A stretch of 64,000 nt of DNA. Source: Caldicellulosiruptor danielii (GTDB lineage: Bacteria > Bacillota > Thermoanaerobacteria > Caldicellulosiruptorales > Caldicellulosiruptoraceae). Of this stretch, positions 39,461 through 50,524 are shown in pieces. Both the position numbers and the translations under genes were made by a program. Positions within the stretch are counted from its first letter, which is position 1, and each line of letters begins with the position of its first letter. The notes under the pieces were generated by a model. The model was not told where the DNA came from, made no database searches, and was given only the letters and a program-made list of their open reading frames with translations. The stretch is from positions 1,077,001-1,141,000 of the forward strand of contig NZ_CP139957.1 of the NCBI RefSeq assembly GCF_034343125.1. Direction: 5' to 3'.

Positions 39461-40837
39461 GTGAAAAAGTATATATTGATTGGGATTGTAGTAGTGCTTT
39501 TGATAGCAAGCACAGTTTTAGGATATACTCTTTATGACAATGTTACAAAAGTTCTTAACACAGATAGGATTTATAAGGGTGTTTATGTTGAGGGTGTTCA
39601 TTTGGGTGGACTTACCACAGAAGAGGCTCTTGAGCTTTTAAAAAAGACTTATTTTGAACCACTGCAGAACAAAAAAATTGAAGTTATAGTTGAAGATAAG
39701 AGCTATTTTCTTGAGTATTCATCTCTTGGAATAAAGATGGATATAGACAAGGCTGTAGAAAAGGCATATTCAATTGGCAGAAAGGGCAACCTTGCAACAC
39801 GGTTTAAAGAGATAAAAAAGGTTTATGAAAATCCGATGGTCATAAGACTTAATTTCGAATATGATGAAAACAAACTCAAAAATTTTGTAGATGAGCTTTT
39901 CAACACATACTTTCAATCGTCTGTTAATGCAAGTATCAAAAAAGTAGGAGACCACTTTGTTATAACTCCAGAGAGAGTAGGGAAAAAAATTGATTATGCC
40001 TATCTTTTGAATAAATTAAAAGATATGATTAAAAACAAGCAAGAAGGCAAGATTTATGCAAGATTTTTAAGAGTAATGCCGCGAATCACAGCAAGTGAAC
40101 TTTCGAAGGTAAAAGAAATAATAGGTTCGTTTACCACAAAGTTTGATAGTTCAAATGTTGCAAGAAGCGAAAATATAAGGGTGGCTGCACAAAAGATAAA
40201 TGGTAGCTTAGTGATGCCGGGCGAAATATTTTCGCTGTCAAAGGCAATTGGACCTGTAACAGTTGAGAATGGTTTTAAAATTGCAAAAGTAATTGTCAAC
40301 AATGAGTTTGTAGACGGTGTTGGTGGCGGGCTTTGTCAAATAGCAACAACTATATACAATGCAGTTTTGATGGCTCAGCTGAAGGTTGTGGAAAGAGCAC
40401 CACATTCAGCTCTAATTTCGTACATGCCACCTGGCAGGGATGCAACAATTGCTTCAGGTTCAATAGATTTTAAATTCAAGAACACAACAAGTGCGCCTAT
40501 CTATGTTGAAAGTTATACTTCCAAAAATACTGTGACGGTTAACCTTTATGGCAAAAATAATCACAAGGGTGAAGTGGTTAAGTTCGAATCGGAAGTAATC
40601 GAAAAAATACCATACAAAAAAGTTTACAAAAACGACCCAACACTTCCTCAAGGAGTAGAAAAGCTTTCCAATAAACCCCAGAATGGCTTAAAGGTAAAGA
40701 CTTATATGCTTGTTTATAAAGATGGCAGGTTAATAGAAAGAAAGCTTCTGTCCTATGACTATTATAAACCTGTAAATGCTGTGATACTGGTTGGAACAAA
40801 AGCAAAAGAGACAGTCTCTTCATCTGTTTATGAGTAA
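39461..40837 (+). CDS. VanW-family protein with G5-like C-terminal domain
   Basis: A 458-residue envelope protein. An N-terminal membrane anchor (KKYILIGIVVVLLIASTVLGYTL) is followed by PG_binding_4-type domains (about 40-220), the VanW domain (about 245-375: MPGEIFSLSKAIGP, GGGLCQIATTIYNAV, PGRDATIA), and a short G5-like end (KVKTYMLVYKDGRL). VanW is named from vancomycin-resistance clusters but its function is unknown, and nothing here suggests resistance. GTG start 9 bp after korC. It may share transcription with the hydrogenase cluster through lack of a terminator only. Confidence 0.88.
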   Translation: MKKYILIGIVVVLLIASTVLGYTLYDNVTKVLNTDRIYKGVYVEGVHLGGLTTEEALELLKKTYFEPLQNKKIEVIVEDKSYFLEYSSLGIKMDIDKAVEKAYSIGRKGNLATRFKEIKKVYENPMVIRLNFEYDENKLKNFVDELFNTYFQSSVNASIKKVGDHFVITPERVGKKIDYAYLLNKLKDMIKNKQEGKIYARFLRVMPRITASELSKVKEIIGSFTTKFDSSNVARSENIRVAAQKINGSLVMPGEIFSLSKAIGPVTVENGFKIAKVIVNNEFVDGVGGGLCQIATTIYNAVLMAQLKVVERAPHSALISYMPPGRDATIASGSIDFKFKNTTSAPIYVESYTSKNTVTVNLYGKNNHKGEVVKFESEVIEKIPYKKVYKNDPTLPQGVEKLSNKPQNGLKVKTYMLVYKDGRLIERKLLSYDYYKPVNAVILVGTKAKETVSSSVYE

Positions 40838-41521: not shown

Positions 41522-41590
41522 AATATAATGAAAATTGACAGAAGATATGATATAATATTACCATAAAACTTGAAAATTCAGGAGGCAAAA

Positions 41591-42064
41591 ATGCCAGAAA
41601 ATGAAATTTTGCAAGCTATAGTTGCAAATCTTGAAAAGATTAATGAGCGACTTGATACTATTGAGAAAAGATTAGATAAGATTGAGCAAAGGCTTGATAT
41701 GGTTGAGCAAAGGCTTGATATGGTTGAGCAAAGGCTTGATATGGTTGAGCAAAGACTCGACATGGTTGAGCAAAGGGTTGTGAAGCTTGAGCAAGATGTT
41801 CAAATTATTAAACAGGATGTTGTTATATTGAAAGAAGGTAACAAGGAACTGACAAGAAGAATGAATGCTGTATATGACCAGGTTGCATTCTTGACGGAGT
41901 TTCGAACAGAGATGATTATGTTCAGAGATGAGGTGTACAAAAGATTTGACAATTTAGAGCAGCAGACAGGGAGATTAAAAGAAGGGTTTGAGTATTTGCG
42001 TGACATGACAGTTGAGCATGAAATTGATCTTCGATTTTTGAAAAAAGTTGTAAGAGCTTCATAG
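41591..42064 (+). CDS. Coiled-coil protein with heptad array from 21-bp repeats
   Basis: A 157-residue protein with no membrane segment or signal peptide. Residues about 15-75 are a run of seven-residue units of the type (I/V)EQRLDM, ideal coiled-coil heptads, continuing as less regular heptads to the end. At the DNA level units at 41682-41744 are identical 21-mers and their neighbours diverge, so the array grew by duplication. Similar proteins are loosely annotated as hypothetical or DUF-type coiled-coil proteins; the function is unknown. ATG 41591 follows AGGAGG at good spacing. The bidirectional terminator after it is shared with the regulator gene. Confidence 0.8.
   Translation: MPENEILQAIVANLEKINERLDTIEKRLDKIEQRLDMVEQRLDMVEQRLDMVEQRLDMVEQRVVKLEQDVQIIKQDVVILKEGNKELTRRMNAVYDQVAFLTEFRTEMIMFRDEVYKRFDNLEQQTGRLKEGFEYLRDMTVEHEIDLRFLKKVVRAS
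41640..41786 (+). repeat. Seven tandem 21-bp units inside the coiled-coil gene
   Basis: Period exactly 21 bp. Units starting at 41682, 41703 and 41724 are identical, 41745 nearly so; those at 41640, 41661 and 41766 are diverged. In-frame expansion or contraction would change coiled-coil length without breaking the gene. There are no spacers, so it is not CRISPR. Confidence 0.9.
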
Positions 42065-42128: not shown

Positions 42129-43043
42129 TTATACTTCCTCATAAAATATTCGAAACTTTATATCCTGGTCATAGTTTCCAAAATGCCTTCCGAATAAAGT
42201 AACTCCACCAATATTCTTTGCATGGTCAGGTACAGCAACTCTAAATCTTATTTCATTTTTGGACTCTATGTCAATATCTTTTATAGTGACATTAGAAATT
42301 TTAAATCCGTCTATATATGTCCCATCTTCTGAAATAGAAAGAAGTTTTAAAAGTCCATATTGGTTCCAATTTGGAAACCACCAATCAGGTGTAAAAATTC
42401 CTCTGACATCTCCTCCAAAATCCCCTGGGCTTGTCCAGTAGCCAAGTTCAACTCCATTTAAATAAAAATAGATATCTGACGGCCAGTTATTACTAACACC
42501 AGGGGCTTCTGAGGAAATTTCAAACGAAATCTGGATTTCAACAGCTTTCTGATTTTGACGCAGAAAATTAGGGATTATATATTCTACATAACCTTTTGTG
42601 AACCAGATAATATCACAGTTAACATGTTCAGGATGTGCAAAGTATTTTGGGTCATCCACCTCTCCAATTAACTTATCTTTTGTAGCAAGTCCGCAGGTTG
42701 GATAAACATCAAAAATAGAATAATTGCCCACTTTAATTTCGCACTCATATAATTTTTGAGGATGCTTTGTGACGATGTTAATAATTATCTTGTCTTCAAC
42801 AAGACGGCAAATCTTTTGATTGCCATGTTTTCCTGCAGCCGCACTGATTGTAACAATCCCAGCAGCAATTAGCTTTTTCATGTGCTGAGTAACTGCACCA
42901 TTTGTAAGCCCGAGTTTTTGTGCAATTTCATTCATATTCATTTCTCTGTACTTACTCAGAAGATTAATGATTTCTAACCTTGCATCAGACGCTAAGGCTT
43001 CAAAAAGAACTTTTGCTTCTTTGAGATTGTCAATTTGTTTCAT
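42129..43043 (-). CDS. ArsR-type winged-helix regulator fused to a beta-rich putative sensor domain
   Basis: About 304 residues. Residues about 12-85 form an ArsR winged helix-turn-helix (LASDARLEIINLL, MNMNEIAQKLGLTNGAVTQHMKKLIAAGIV) without the CxC metal site of SmtB/ArsR metal sensors. The remaining 215 residues are rich in Trp, Tyr, Gly and Asn (YFYLNGVELGYWTSPGDFGG, PDWWFPNWNQYG) and look like an all-beta, carbohydrate-binding-type fold; this is my reading, not a database hit. Its neighbour on the far side of an insertion sequence is a glycosidase cluster with a matching palindrome, so it probably senses a sugar. ATG 43043 is better spaced from GGGTGG than ATG 43052. Confidence 0.75.
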   Translation of the reverse strand: MKQIDNLKEAKVLFEALASDARLEIINLLSKYREMNMNEIAQKLGLTNGAVTQHMKKLIAAGIVTISAAAGKHGNQKICRLVEDKIIINIVTKHPQKLYECEIKVGNYSIFDVYPTCGLATKDKLIGEVDDPKYFAHPEHVNCDIIWFTKGYVEYIIPNFLRQNQKAVEIQISFEISSEAPGVSNNWPSDIYFYLNGVELGYWTSPGDFGGDVRGIFTPDWWFPNWNQYGLLKLLSISEDGTYIDGFKISNVTIKDIDIESKNEIRFRVAVPDHAKNIGGVTLFGRHFGNYDQDIKFRIFYEEV

Positions 43044-43061
43044 TTTCTGCATTCCACCCTT

Positions 43062-43077
43062 TTTAATAAGTATTAAA
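43062..43077. promoter_or_regulatory. 7-2-7 palindrome at the regulator's own start
   Basis: TTTAATA-AG-TATTAAA is a perfect inverted repeat just upstream of the regulator's ribosome site (minus strand), a fitting place for autoregulation. Its half-site recurs before the GH51 gene at 45438-45453. Confidence 0.45.
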
Positions 43078-43119
43078 CATTTTTATTTTAGCTGGTTTTA
43101 AAATAATCTGCAAGAAACA

Positions 43120-43130
43120 AGTAAAATTTG
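43120..43130. repeat. Direct repeat (target site duplication), left copy
   Basis: AGTAAAATTTG occurs here and again at 45323-45333, directly flanking the two ends of the ISLre2 element. This marks the ancestral insertion site. Confidence 0.8.
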
Positions 43131-43163
43131 ATAGTGTCAAGAGTTTGTAGGAAAAATTTTTTA

Positions 43164-43718
43164 TTAGAATACACCTGCATTGTAGAAGTCACAACTAATC
43201 AAAGATTTTAATGCTCTTCGTAACTGGTTAACTTTACCATTTTCTATAACTGGTATATTATTCCACTTCTCCACACCTCGCCTCACTTTCTTTCCGTTCT
43301 TTATAATATCTTCAGCTATCTCCTTCACTTCTTGCCTTTCTTGCCTTTTCGCTTTTATCCTCTCTAAATATACCTGCATAAGCCCAAATCCATTATATTT
43401 TAGACTCAATAGCTTTACCATCGTCTCTGCTACATCTTCGCTCCACCCTCTTGGTCTTGAACTCATCCTCTCAGCTAATACATGACTTACATGCCCTTCC
43501 GCACTGCAGCCCTTTATCTTTACATTTGCTGCTTCTAATACTATATTATCCCAGTGAGAAAGTATATATCTCCTACCCTTCTTTATCCTCCTCTTAGCTA
43601 CCTCATCTCCTTTAACCCTCTCTATCCCTTCTTTTACCAATGCCTCAAATCTCTCTCTATCCTTCTCTCTTAATGCCTTCATAATCTCTTTAAATAACTC
43701 CCTATCCCCTCCTGCGGG
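43164..43718 (-). pseudogene. ISLre2 transposase, C-terminal fragment
   Basis: About 185 residues of the UPF0236/ISLre2 transposase C-terminus, with the diagnostic GCSAEGHVSHVLAERMSSRPRGWS and the upstream GDRELFKEIMKALREKDRERF. The frame runs upstream past the first ATG (43682) to about 43718, where the IS256-type sequence begins, so the ATG is not a real start. The N-terminal part of the same gene lies at 45188 and below. Confidence 0.85.
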
Positions 43719-43747
43719 AGTTAAAATAAAATTGTGTCTACTGTATA

Positions 43748-45004
43748 ATGAAAATTAAAAGGGGGTCGATTACAATGGAAAAAGATATCATTTTTGAAAC
43801 AGCTAAAAACATGGCAATTGAGCAAGTATTAAATATGTATTGCTCTTCAGATGATCCTAATCGCCCTGCTCTCAAACAACTATTAGAACATTTATTAAAC
43901 TGCTATTGGGTTATCAGAACGAAAAATCTACCTTGAAAAAAAACCAGAATGATAAAGGCAACGGCTTTTATGACCGCATGCTTTCCACTCCAGTAGGTAA
44001 CCTCGAACCATCAAGCCACGAACAAGAACCAGTAATTTTCGCCCATCTGTCCTGCTATCCTGCCATACAAGAGAGTTGATTCATCTTATACAGATTTACT
44101 TATGTCTTTGGTTGCTAATGGCTACTCTGAAAGTTTGCTAATCCAAACCCTTAAAAGCCTTGACTTACCTTACTCAGAAGAGGAAATAACTAAAATTAAA
44201 AATGACCTCAAAAACGAACTCCAGCTCTTCAAACAAAGAGAACTACCCGAAAACGCCTTCGCTACTTTCAATTGATGGCTACCACTGTGAAATCAGAGAC
44301 AACTCAAAAGTCAAACAGGCTACATGCTATGTTGTTCTCGGCATCGATTTAGAAGGCAAAAAAGATATCTTTGGCATTTACACCTTCTTTGGCAAAGAAA
44401 ACAAAGCTGATTGGATGAAAGTTTTTGAAGATTTAATCACAAGGGGTCTAAAAAAAGTCCTAATAATTGTAAGCGATGACTTCCCTGGTATAATAGATGC
44501 AGTTAAAATCGCTTATCCTTATGCCGATCATCAATTATGTTTTGTCCACCTACAACGTAATGTAAAACGACATATGACAAAAGAAGATAGTTCAAAATTC
44601 AATAAAGAATTAGAAAGAATAAGATTATCTTCTTCTGATATTGATGAAGCTGTTTCCGCTTTTAATCAACTTTGCAATGAATACCTTTCTAAATATCCTC
44701 GCTTTTTAAAAGGAATTTTGGAGAAAGCTGAATATTACTTTGCTCATATAAGATATCCTGAGGAAATTAGAAAGCATATTTACACCACTAATGCAGTAGA
44801 GAGCATAAACAGCATAATTGAAAAGATAAGAATGAAATCGGGCGGATATTTTCAATCAACAGAGATTCTTGAGAAATTTGCTTTCAAAGAGAGAACTTTA
44901 AGCGTGGTAAATGGAAAAATGGGGTACCTCTTATTAAACACCACACTTACGAAATCTTACAACTTTTCAAATTACGCTATGAATTGGATACACAAAATTC
45001 TTGA
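43748..45004 (+). pseudogene. IS256-family (mutator-type) transposase, multiply frameshifted
   Basis: Pieces of one IS256-type transposase of about 400 residues read in several frames: 43748-43936 (start, ends with a frame break near LSERKIYLEKKPE), about 43940-44080 (NGFYDRMLSTPVGNLE), about 44080-44270 (VDSSYTDLLMSLVANGYSE, LPENAFATF), then the main piece to about 44895 with DGYHCEIRDNS, IIVSDDFPGI and HLQRNVKRHM, and finally WKNGVPLIK to YELDTQNS, with the stop at 45002. At least four shifts make it inactive. The left end keeps a full GTGTCTAC-type end sequence; at the right the match stops at TTGACA, so the outer inverted repeat is lost. Confidence 0.85.
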
Positions 45005-45009
45005 CAAGT

Positions 45010-45188
45010 CTCGATTCCTCTATAAATTTACATGCCTCCTCTATCATCTCCTTACCTATCTGGTCTAATTGCTTCTTGAGATCAATTGAATATTCTGTTA
45101 TATCCTTCTCCCTTCGCGCTAACTTCACTATTCCTTCCTCAAAAGTCTTTAAAAGTTCTTCTATTTTTGATACAATATTTTTAGTCAT
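45010..45188 (-). pseudogene. ISLre2 transposase, N-terminal fragment
   Basis: From ATG 45188 (AAAGGAGG upstream) this minus-strand frame reads about 58 residues of the typical charged ISLre2 N-terminus (TKNIVSKIEELLKTFEEGI, then KEMIEEACKFIEES) and then runs into the IS256-type sequence. It belongs with the C-terminal fragment at 43164-43718. Confidence 0.78.
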
Positions 45189-45322
45189 TTTGCTCCCTCC
45201 TTTGGTTTGTTTTTCCTTTTCTTTTTTCGTTTTTTTCAACTATATATTCTACATCATATTTTCTTTTCTACCAAGAGGAGGGAGCTTTTTTCCATCCAAA
45301 GTCCTATAAATATTTTACACTA

Positions 45323-45333
45323 AGTAAAATTTG
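45323..45333. repeat. Direct repeat (target site duplication), right copy
   Basis: Second copy of AGTAAAATTTG, directly after the right inverted repeat of the ISLre2 element. Confidence 0.8.
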
Positions 45334-45350
45334 TGAGTTCAAACTGAGTC

Positions 45351-45370
45351 AACTTGTATATATACAAGTT
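45351..45370. promoter_or_regulatory. 20-bp perfect palindrome upstream of the GH51 promoter
   Basis: AACTTGTATATATACAAGTT is fully symmetric and lies 25 bp before the -35 box. The half-site (A/T)(C/T)TTGT resembles AraR operator halves of Bacillus (ATTTGT-ACGT-ACAAAT), but the spacing is two bases longer. Either an AraR-like repressor or an activator could bind; no such regulator is in the window. Confidence 0.5.
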
Positions 45371-45395
45371 TTTATGAGAAGTGTAAATAGTGAAC

Positions 45396-45424
45396 TTGAT
45401 TATTTCAAATCCAGTTTGTATAAT
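45396..45424 (+). promoter_or_regulatory. Sigma-A promoter of the GH51 gene
   Basis: TTGATT (45396-45401) and TATAAT (45419-45424) with a 17-bp spacer. The leader is about 85 nt. Confidence 0.75.
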
Positions 45425-45426
45425 TT

Positions 45427-45453
45427 AATTAAAATATTTTAATTTGAATTAAA
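45427..45453. promoter_or_regulatory. Overlapping palindromes at the GH51 transcription start
   Basis: An 18-bp perfect palindrome (AATTAAAAT-ATTTTAATT, 45427-45444) overlaps TTTAATT-TG-AATTAAA (45438-45453). The second has the same 7-2-7 layout and TTTAAT half-site as the palindrome before the ArsR-type gene. Position over the start site suits a repressor. High AT content raises the chance of coincidence. Confidence 0.45.
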
Positions 45454-45501
45454 TAAAAGTGCGTGCATTGAAAATCTTCTCAAAGGATATCAAAAAGTTG
45501 A

Positions 45502-47034
<1,533 letters not shown>

Positions 47035-47105: not shown

Positions 47106-47200
47106 TAAAATCTGATAGAAATTTCAAAATTATTAGATTTAAATACAGTAGCTAAAAACTTAAAATAAAAGATAAATTCATTATGGAAGGAGATGAGAGT

Positions 47201-48517
47201 ATGCTCAAAATAGCTATTATAGGGGCAGGAAGCGGAGTTTTTACAAGGAACTTGGTAAGAGACATTTTATCATATCCAGAGCTAAGAGATTCTACAATAG
47301 CGCTTATGGACATTGACAGTATAAGGCTTGAATTTATGAGAAGAGCTTTGCAAAAACTTATTGACCAAGAGAAGTATCCTACCCGGCTTGAAGCCACAAC
47401 TGATAGAAAAGAAGCTTTAAAAGGTGCAAAATATGTGATTGTCACAATACAGGTTGGAGGTTTAAAACCTTTCGAGTATGACATTTACATTCCTCTAAAA
47501 TATGGTGTAAAACAGGCGGTTGGTGACACAATAGGTCCAGGTGGAGTTTTCAGGGCTCTTAGAACAATACCAGTTTTGCTTGACATTGCAAAAGACATGG
47601 AAGAACTGTGCCCTGATGCTCTTCTTCTTAACTATGTAAATCCAATGGCAATGAATTGCTGGGCACTAAACAAAGCTACCAGTATAAAAAGTGTGGGGCT
47701 TTGTCACAGTGTTCAAGGAACTGCCGAATTTTTAGCAAAGATTATTGGGGCAAAAATGGAAGAGATTTCATACTTATGCGCAGGTATAAACCATATGGCG
47801 TGGTTTTTAAAATTTGAGTGGAATGGAAAAGATGCGTATCCTCTTATAAGAGAAAAAGCAAAAGACCCCGAGATTTATACCCAGGATGTTACAAAATTCG
47901 AGATACTAAAACATTTTGGATATTATGTTTCAGAGTCAAGTTTTCACATGTCTGAATATGTTCCCTATTTTAGAAAGAGCGACGATTGGATAAATAGGAT
48001 ACATAGAACCCATTCATGGCACAAAGAACATTACAATGGCATGTATTTGCACTGCTGCTTAGATGCTGCGAAAACTTTACTTGATGACCTGAAGAAAATG
48101 GCAGAGGCAGACTACATCGACCCAAAAAGAAGTAACGAATACTGTGCAACTATCATCCATTCCATAGAAACAAACACTCCAAGTGTGATAAATGGTAATG
48201 TTGAAAATAAAGGTTTGATTACAAATCTGCCTGAAGGATGCTGCGTTGAAGTGCCATGTTTGGTTGACAAAAATGGTATTCAGCCAACTCATGTAGGAGA
48301 TCTTCCACCGCAGCTTGCAGCTTTGAATAGGACTAATATAAACGTGCAGGAGCTTGCTGTGATTGCTGCTTTGACAGGTGATAGAGAAGCAGTTTATCAT
48401 GCAATTATGATGGACCCTCTCACAAGTAGCGTTTTAGATTTGGATGAAATACGCAAGATGGTAGATGAGATGTTTGAAGCAGAAAAAGAATGGCTGCCAG
48501 AAAAGTTTTACAAATAA
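47201..48517 (+). CDS. GH4 glycosidase, probable alpha-galactosidase (MelA-type)
   Basis: NAD- and Mn-dependent GH4 enzyme, 438 residues, cytosolic. The Rossmann motif IAIIGAGSGVFTRNLV starts the protein; NYVNPMAMNCW, then GLCHSVQG with Cys168 and His169, and GINHMAWF with His198 are the metal-site motifs. The CHS form of the cysteine motif is the one in MelA-type alpha-galactosidases, while GH4 alpha-glucosidases usually have other residues there, hence the call. Substrate is not proven. ATG 47201 has GGAGATGAG upstream; the ATG at 47183 is dismissed. GH31 follows after 21 bp. Confidence 0.88.
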   Translation: MLKIAIIGAGSGVFTRNLVRDILSYPELRDSTIALMDIDSIRLEFMRRALQKLIDQEKYPTRLEATTDRKEALKGAKYVIVTIQVGGLKPFEYDIYIPLKYGVKQAVGDTIGPGGVFRALRTIPVLLDIAKDMEELCPDALLLNYVNPMAMNCWALNKATSIKSVGLCHSVQGTAEFLAKIIGAKMEEISYLCAGINHMAWFLKFEWNGKDAYPLIREKAKDPEIYTQDVTKFEILKHFGYYVSESSFHMSEYVPYFRKSDDWINRIHRTHSWHKEHYNGMYLHCCLDAAKTLLDDLKKMAEADYIDPKRSNEYCATIIHSIETNTPSVINGNVENKGLITNLPEGCCVEVPCLVDKNGIQPTHVGDLPPQLAALNRTNINVQELAVIAALTGDREAVYHAIMMDPLTSSVLDLDEIRKMVDEMFEAEKEWLPEKFYK

Positions 48518-48538: not shown

Positions 48539-50524
48539 ATGGCGAGGATTTTCTTGGTTCATGGAGATAGATTGATAAGTAAATACGATAAGGAGCTATT
48601 ATGGATTGAAGCATGGGGTAAAAACAGTTTGCGAGTTCGTGCAACACACGAAGGAAGTATGCCAGAAAATGATTGGGCTTTATTACCAAAGACTAAAATT
48701 AGTGGTAATAATATAGAAATTAAAATTTTGGACAATAGAGGAATAATAAAAAATGGTAATATATGTGCTGTAATTGAGTCAAGTGGTGATATTAAGTTTT
48801 ACAATCACGAAAACAAAATTATATTGCAAGAATATACTTCAAAATTCGCTGCAGGACTCCGCAAAAGAGGACGAGAATTTCAGCCCATATTAGGAGGTAG
48901 TTATCGATTAACTGTTCGTTTTGAATCAGAACCTAATGAAAAACTTTATGGAATGGGACAATATCAGCAACCATTCTTAAATCTAAAAGGCTGCTCTTTA
49001 GAACTTGCACATAGGAATTCTCAATCAAGTGTCCCGTTTGTGGTTTCAAACATTGGGTATGGCTTTTTATGGAACAATCCAGCAATTGGAAAGGTCGTAT
49101 TTGGCAAAAATATAACTGAGTGGGAAGCATATGTAACCAAAATTATGGATTATTGGATAACAGCAGGAAATACTCCTGCTGAAATTTTAGAACAATATAT
49201 GGAAGTAACAGGAACACCTCCAATGATGCCCGACTATGCAATGGGGTTTTGGCAAAGTAAACTAAGATATAGAAATGCTCAAGAGTTAATGGATATAGCA
49301 TATGAATATAAAAGACGCAATCTTCCTCTTGATGTAATTGTAATTGATTTTTTCCATTGGCCACATCAGGGAGACTGGAAATTTGATGAAGATTACTGGC
49401 CTTACCCAGAAAAAATGGTTGAAGAGCTCAGAAAAATGGGTATTGAAGTAATGGTATCTATATGGCCGACTGTTGAAAAAGAAAGCGAGAATTATGAAGA
49501 GATGCTTTCAAAGGGCTTACTTATAAGTACCGACCGAGGACCGCGAGTAACTATGCAGTTTGTCAATGACACTCTTTTTGTTGATATGACAAATCCCGAA
49601 GCACGTGAGTTTATGTGGGAAAAAGTTAAAGAAAATTATTTTTCAAAGGGTATTAAAATGTTCTGGCTTGATGAAGCTGAGCCAGAATTTCATAAATATG
49701 AATTTGATAATTATCGATATTACTTGGGACCATGTTTAGAAATAGGAAATATTTATCCTCTATTATATGCAAAAACTTTTTATGATGGATTAAGAAAGGA
49801 AGGTATAGAAAACATAATTAACTTAATTCGCTGTGCTTGGGCTGGTTCCCAACGCTATGGAGTGGTTGTGTGGTCAGGAGATATTGCATCAACCTTTGAA
49901 TCATTGAGGAATCAAGTAGCATGTGGCTTAAATATGGCAATGGCGGGGATACCATGGTGGACAAGCGACATAGGAGGTTTCTATGGTGGCGATCCAAATG
50001 ATCCTTCATTTAGGGAATTAATAATCAGATGGTTTCAATTTGGAGCATTTTGTCCTGTTTTTCGTATACATGGTGATAGAAAACCTTATATTCCACCAAC
50101 TAGTAATAAAGGTGGAGGAAAGGTAGGTTCTGGCGGTCCTAATGAAGTATGGAGTTATGGACAAGAAGCTTACGAAATTTTCAAGAAGTATCTCACTATA
50201 CGTGAAAAACTTAAACCGTATATTAAAAGACAAATGTTACTCACACATAAAAAAGGAACACCTATTATGAGACCACTATTTTATGATTTTCCATCTGATA
50301 CGAAATCGTGGGAGATTGAAGATGAATTCATGTTTGGACCTGATATATTAGTTGCTCCTGTCTTATATGAAGGTATGAGAGAAAGAGTTGTTTATCTACC
50401 TGAAGGTACTCACTGGAGAGAGTGGGAAACAGGAAAAGTATATGAAGGTGGAAAAGAAATTATTTGCCAAGCTCCTTTATCTACAATACCAGTTTTTATA
50501 CGAGATGGAGCTGAGTTGGTATAA
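48539..50524 (+). CDS. GH31 glycosidase, probable alpha-xylosidase
   Basis: 661 residues, no signal peptide. N-terminal beta-sandwich, then the catalytic barrel: nucleophile Asp378 in MFWLDEAEPE and acid/base Asp448 in VVWSGDIAST; YGMGQYQQ, IPWWTSDIGGF and FRIHGDRKPY are family features. The WLDEAEPE form is like bacterial alpha-xylosidases (YicI-type have WKTDFGE; alpha-glucosidases WNDMNEP), so alpha-xylosidase fits best but alpha-glucosidase is not excluded. Arginine codons of the CGN type appear more frequent than in neighbouring genes, a weak sign of recent transfer. Translated with the GH4 gene. Confidence 0.85.
   Translation: MARIFLVHGDRLISKYDKELLWIEAWGKNSLRVRATHEGSMPENDWALLPKTKISGNNIEIKILDNRGIIKNGNICAVIESSGDIKFYNHENKIILQEYTSKFAAGLRKRGREFQPILGGSYRLTVRFESEPNEKLYGMGQYQQPFLNLKGCSLELAHRNSQSSVPFVVSNIGYGFLWNNPAIGKVVFGKNITEWEAYVTKIMDYWITAGNTPAEILEQYMEVTGTPPMMPDYAMGFWQSKLRYRNAQELMDIAYEYKRRNLPLDVIVIDFFHWPHQGDWKFDEDYWPYPEKMVEELRKMGIEVMVSIWPTVEKESENYEEMLSKGLLISTDRGPRVTMQFVNDTLFVDMTNPEAREFMWEKVKENYFSKGIKMFWLDEAEPEFHKYEFDNYRYYLGPCLEIGNIYPLLYAKTFYDGLRKEGIENIINLIRCAWAGSQRYGVVVWSGDIASTFESLRNQVACGLNMAMAGIPWWTSDIGGFYGGDPNDPSFRELIIRWFQFGAFCPVFRIHGDRKPYIPPTSNKGGGKVGSGGPNEVWSYGQEAYEIFKKYLTIREKLKPYIKRQMLLTHKKGTPIMRPLFYDFPSDTKSWEIEDEFMFGPDILVAPVLYEGMRERVVYLPEGTHWREWETGKVYEGGKEIICQAPLSTIPVFIRDGAELV

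Follow-up and report, generated by a model that had tools for sequence, protein, structure and literature searches.

Repressors that respond to sugars are usually described with sensors of the LacI, GntR or ROK type, and the regulator of arabinose and arabinan genes, AraR, is itself a one-component sugar-responsive repressor. A further regulator, the ArsR-family protein ArbA (also called ArbR), was named in Caldicellulosiruptor by Rodionov et al. 2021 (PMC8579813), where its gene lies divergent to the GH51 gene abfA. According to the passages of that paper dealing with this regulator, the intergenic region between arbA and abfA holds one AraR site along with several ArbA sites, and ArbA was predicted to repress abfA from the mapping of transcription start sites, with no binding experiment. 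The arabinan cluster of Geobacillus 56T3 is also headed by a gene annotated as 'ArsR family' (PMC4428132, Table 7), and the araRS gene of L. rossiae is known as an annotation only. In our search of the literature no description of an ArsR protein fused to a carbohydrate-binding module (CBM) was found, nor any paper on ArsR genes with GH43 or GH51 genes in Butyrivibrio.

The stretch of DNA analysed here, referred to as the window, is 64,000 nucleotides of Caldicellulosiruptor danielii (contig NZ_CP139957.1, positions 1,077,001 to 1,141,000), and it contains a gene that is almost certainly the arbA of PMC8579813 (Table 1). The gene and its role within the genus were already predicted in 2021, so that neither is new in itself; we found no earlier description of the CBM-like sensor fold, of how widely the family is distributed or of the operator outside the genus. 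The initial annotation knew of no characterised member, which needs amending in that the protein already has a name and a proposed role; that role too is a prediction. The reading frame lies on the minus strand from the ATG at 43043 to the stop at 42129, with an alternative in-frame ATG at 43052, and the plus strand of the same interval is blocked by stops. The coding sequence is undamaged despite the insertion-sequence remnants that neighbour it, and dN/dS against nine copies from the same genus is 0.03-0.05, indicating strong purifying selection. Directly downstream of arbA, at 41570-42064, is a gene for a coiled-coil protein with a 21-bp tandem repeat (seven residues, VEQRLDM) in 6.4 copies, and at 39461-40837 there is one for a VanW-like protein with PG_binding_4 and G5 domains.

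Table 1. Features of the arbA-abfA region of the window (positions are those of the 64,000-nucleotide stretch; sites, promoter and target are predictions)
Feature	Position	Strand	Details
arbA	42129..43043	-	304 aa; ArsR-type winged helix and CBM-like C-terminal domain
C-terminal sensor domain, putative	42132..42764	-	residues 94-304; galactose-binding-like jelly roll (predicted)
Winged-helix DNA-binding domain	42801..43025	-	about residues 7-81; recognition helix 48-60
Operator beside arbA	43086..43103		TTTTAGCTGGTTTTAAAA; 1 mismatch to TTTTAG-N6-CTAAAA; predicted
12-bp direct repeat, left copy	43119..43130	+	AAGTAAAATTTG; insertion border
Insertion block	43131..45321		two transposase remnants, 2.2 kb; empty site in L105 and L106
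UPF0236 transposase remnant	43164-43682	-	in insertion block
Mutator/IS256-type transposase remnant	44202-45068	+	in insertion block; start missing
12-bp direct repeat, right copy	45322..45333	+	AAGTAAAATTTG; insertion border
AraR-like palindrome	45352..45369		ACTTGTATATATACAAGT; from sequence; one AraR site in the region in the relevant passages of PMC8579813
Predicted abfA promoter	45396..45424	+	TTGATT-17-TATAAT; TTGA..-17-TATAAT in 9/9 congeners
Weak ArbA-type site	45437..45454		TTTTAATTTGAATTAAAT; 3 mismatches; 12 bp past the -10 box
abfA, GH51 alpha-L-arabinofuranosidase	45517..47034	+	Pfam Alpha-L-AF_C 3e-46; predicted target
GH4 glycosidase	47183..48517	+	Pfam; possible abfA operon member; also after abfA in congeners
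GH31 glycosidase	48539..50524	+	Pfam; possible abfA operon member

The N-terminal part of the protein is matched by the Pfam models HTH_5/ArsR (residues 20-65, E 2e-10) and HTH_24 (E 8.5e-11), and in the full-length model the winged helix is like those of CadC, CzrA and SmtB, with a best VIA Z of 12.8 over 79 residues. Its cysteines are at positions 79, 101, 117 and 143, with none in residues 1-78, so that the winged helix has no CxC metal site, as the initial annotation had recognised. That annotation had also described a large C-terminal beta domain of no recognised family; this measures about 210 residues, no Pfam or NCBIfam model covers residues from about 115 to 304, and no CBM family is among the Pfam matches shown for ArbA at E <= 1.

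An AlphaFold2 model of full-length ArbA, built from 40 homologues, reached a pLDDT of 88.6, and because winged helices filled the VIA search with this model the C-terminal domain was modelled separately (pLDDT 89.0, pTM 0.88). The top VIA match of the separate model is the CBM6 structure 2cdp (Z 9.7, rmsd 2.8, 121 residues), another CBM6 (2cdo, Z 9.6) is second and CBM35 and CBM36 come next on re-alignment, with the matches to these three families at Z 8.3-9.7 over about 116-129 residues. Counted by hand, 34 of the 50 VIA rows are CBMs or carbohydrate enzymes that bear one, the others being 11 Cry toxins and five ephrin receptors. Models with no true match commonly reach a best Z of 7-8, whereas here rank 50 still scores 8.3. 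Foldseek by itself gave mixed matches of low TM (BcsB, lectins, Cry toxins), so the VIA re-alignment was required, and a profile of the domain searched against PDB sequences had no match even at E 10. The domain is modelled confidently as a galactose-binding-like jelly roll nearest to CBM6/35/36; the initial annotation had suggested a fold search and had held that a known non-sugar fold would speak against its reading, an outcome that did not arise. A common fold is no proof of sugar binding. Conservation averages 0.75 over the domain but 0.88 in each of two loop-rich stretches (residues 175-193 and 204-231), which carry the motifs SSEAPG..WPSDI and TSPGDFGG..PDWW..NQYG and are the best conserved of the whole protein; among the highly conserved loop residues are W187, W203, W221, W222, D190, D208, N227 and Q228. 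These motifs are largely retained in proteins of Rhizobium, Deinococcus and Enterococcus, and occur in weaker form in a 710-residue frame with a lipoprotein-like start (L146:184-2316, minus strand) that has no winged helix and no Pfam match and is followed by a long unannotated region; the C-terminal domain thus appears to be a module in its own right.

It had been noted beforehand that three glycosidases lie beyond a single insertion sequence. Pfam places GH51, GH4 and GH31 enzymes there, but the block between the 12-bp repeats consists of the remains of two elements. With the insertion in place, the predicted operator still adjoins arbA, while the promoter, the AraR-like site and the weak ArbA-type site have stayed on the abfA side, so ArbA could still act in trans. 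Comparison with nine congeners shows that arbA is directly divergent to the GH51 gene abfA in L100, L105 and L106, which like the window have no transporter or glycoside hydrolase genes between the two. In the other six (L098, L099 and L101-L104) the gap is filled with ABC transporter and GH43 or GH51 genes, in operons of at least three distinct kinds, as if transporter modules were swapped under one regulator. Two further genomes of the genus (G007 and G008) have no arbA, and G007 still has a GH51 gene.

A pattern scan of genome_contigs found 201 stretches that encode relatives of ArbA, the best 80 of which were retained; these come mostly from Lachnospiraceae, but also from Paenibacillus and Treponema, and include homologues of 54-60% identity over the full length. 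Altogether more than 200 relatives are spread across Firmicutes, spirochaetes, Deinococcus and Alphaproteobacteria, and, as had been anticipated, they carry a generic name, 'ArsR family transcriptional regulator'. The C-terminal domain is found in 24 of the 398 genomes sampled from the phylum and in 260 plasmid records, mostly of Rhizobium and Sinorhizobium. Several genomes of Paenibacillus-like bacteria (G034, G228, G341, G381, G078) have 4-7 paralogues, which neighbour GH51, GH43 (arabinanase- and xylosidase-type), GH2 or solute-binding protein genes.

The nearest neighbours of the regulator across 37 deduplicated loci (n = 74) include 22 GH43 and 15 GH51 genes, against 6 and 2 among control genes about five genes away in the same loci (n = 52; Fisher p 6e-5), a statistic that, as with those for the motif below, is weakened by the kinship of the loci to one another, and is conservative where the controls hold true targets, since they were drawn from the same loci. 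In annotated plasmid loci the homologues of Rhizobium and Bosea adjoin genes for alpha-N-arabinofuranosidase and an ABC transporter, that of Deinococcus two GH43 genes and ABC genes, and that of Enterococcus a GH43 gene and an oligosaccharide MFS gene. Certain homologues adjoin GH43 enzymes with a xylosidase-type C-domain (beta-xylosidase) or GH2 enzymes and others have no carbohydrate gene alongside, so the ligand is not uniform across the family. The specificities of the paralogues probably differ, and each set of paralogues is possibly an expansion of oligosaccharide specificities.

The regions 250 bp upstream of the 37 homologues were searched for spaced inverted repeats with no preset motif and with shuffles as the null. 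TTTTA-N8-TAAAA occurs upstream of 14 of them (0.39 expected) and TTTAG-N6-CTAAA upstream of nine (0.01 expected), these being two views of the single palindrome TTTTAG-N6-CTAAAA. With up to two mismatches allowed, 25/37 regulators have a site upstream, as against 24/171 of the other genes in the same loci (p 1.7e-10, with the same reservation on kinship). Among the 32 other genes that have a site with at most one mismatch there are 10 GH43 and 10 SBP_bac_1 (solute-binding protein) genes, whereas the 64 genes lacking a site include six GH43 and, among the families listed, no SBP_bac_1. It is apparent that the palindrome is common to the upstream regions of distant ArbA homologues and of GH43 and solute-binding protein genes.

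Palindromes had been flagged in the window near 43050-43090 and 45340-45460, and one was found on the arbA side and two on the abfA side (Table 1). The site beside arbA is probably autoregulatory; the matching position, between the start of arbA and the divergent promoter, is filled in all nine congeners. A site-like palindrome of varying quality also lies 12-32 bp past the divergent -10 box in the window and in 9/9 congeners, seven of which have stronger sites (0-2 mismatches, 25-32 bp past the box), a strong example being TTTTAGAAAATACTAAAA. The motif is not enriched over the whole genome, where it has 59 matches and the reversed pattern 90, and no arabinanase-type GH43_C domain was found; as the abfA-side site is degenerate as well, the regulon in this genome is small and local at most. 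The sole perfect match in the genome (759383), flanked by an alcohol-dehydrogenase-like frame and an ORF resembling lipB, was taken as chance.

It is very probable that this regulator controls genes for the digestion of arabinan, and likely that ArbA is a one-component repressor of arabinan-utilisation genes released by arabino-oligosaccharides. The ArsR-type winged helices, probably as a dimer, would bind TTTTAG-N6-CTAAAA palindromes before arbA itself and just past the promoter of the divergent genes, blocking transcription of abfA here and, in congeners, of abfA along with genes for an ABC transporter and for GH43/GH51 enzymes that are secreted or held at the surface. The CBM6/35-like jelly roll with its long, highly conserved loops would be the sensor, and the binding of an intracellular alpha-L-arabinofuranosyl oligosaccharide, or a product of one, would release the repressor. 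That the GH51 gene is under sugar-sensing control, as first suggested from the window, is well supported by the predicted CBM-like fold, the genome context and the shared operator motif.

The direction of control could be the reverse, with an inducer-bound form recruiting RNA polymerase to the arabinan genes as an activator, and one site does lie near the start of arbA, upstream of the divergent promoter. Yet all congeners also have a site downstream of the divergent -10 box, and 12-32 bp past this box is the position of a roadblock; the relevant passages of PMC8579813 likewise conclude repression from mapped start sites, and activation is thus improbable. An ordinary ArsR sensor of metal or redox state, near glycosidases by chance, would account for the ArsR head and for Cys117, which is invariant in homologues (PTCG motif). 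Against this, the winged helix has no CxC, and the linkage to GH43 and GH51 holds strongly throughout the family; metal sensing was rejected for want of the CxC and from the sugar-gene context, and this explanation is highly improbable.

Many sugar repressors sense monosaccharides, and as AraA adjoins certain homologues it is conceivable that the sensor reads not an oligosaccharide but L-arabinose or some phosphorylated intermediate. This is the less likely choice of ligand: the region also has an AraR-like site, through which arabinose is already sensed, so that a second arabinose sensor would be redundant, and a CBM-like fold with paralogues placed by different glycosidases fits oligosaccharides. 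The C-terminal domain may not be a sensor at all, but a structural part for dimerisation or protein-protein contact, jelly rolls being common and this one shared with ephrin receptors and Cry toxin domains; the model also has no ArsR-type C-terminal helix, so another element must dimerise the protein. A purely structural role is quite improbable, given that it is the loops and not the strands that are extremely conserved, that CBMs dominate the structural matches and that the genes are linked to glycosidases.

Beyond repression of arabinan genes by ArbA itself, we lean a little towards the view that the C-terminal domain represents an oligosaccharide sensor of a new, intracellular class: a CBM-like jelly roll, joined to an ArsR winged helix in several phyla, that reads oligosaccharides from arabinan and xylan directly. 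On this view the expanded paralogues of Paenibacillus-like bacteria differ in specificity, and the operator is conserved across the Firmicutes. If true, a fold that grips plant polysaccharides outside the cell would double inside it as a switch governing their utilisation. Members of this large and barely studied family are frequent in the Lachnospiraceae of rumen and gut, in Paenibacillus and in rhizobia, yet bear generic names. With an operator defined and a class of ligand predicted, hundreds of such regulators become open to testing, and oligosaccharide biosensors could follow, one of them derived from a thermophile.

Compared with the ArbA of PMC8579813, the window likewise has an ArsR-type regulator divergent to a GH51 abfA, and AraR-type and ArbA-type sites, the latter scored here by the motif derived in this work, and differs by the insertion-sequence remnants between the genes; the relevant passages of that paper cover the role and sites within the genus and not the fold, the wider family or the operator elsewhere. 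The winged helix (best Z 12.8) is shared with the ArsR/SmtB metalloregulators CadC, CzrA and SmtB, but ArbA has no CxC, is three times longer and lies among sugar genes, and the predicted monomer shows no helix over residues 61-131, after the wing, where those regulators have the dimerisation helix alpha5. AraR resembles ArbA, as proposed here, in being a one-component sugar-responsive repressor of arabinose and arabinan genes, although its GntR head and LacI-like sensor are both unrelated to the domains of ArbA and its palindrome is different. The predicted jelly-roll beta sandwich is held in common with CBM6, CBM35 and CBM36, from which the ArbA domain differs in having no sequence match in Pfam or the PDB and about 80 extra residues past the aligned core, and whereas those modules are found on secreted enzymes, this one is carried by an intracellular transcription factor.
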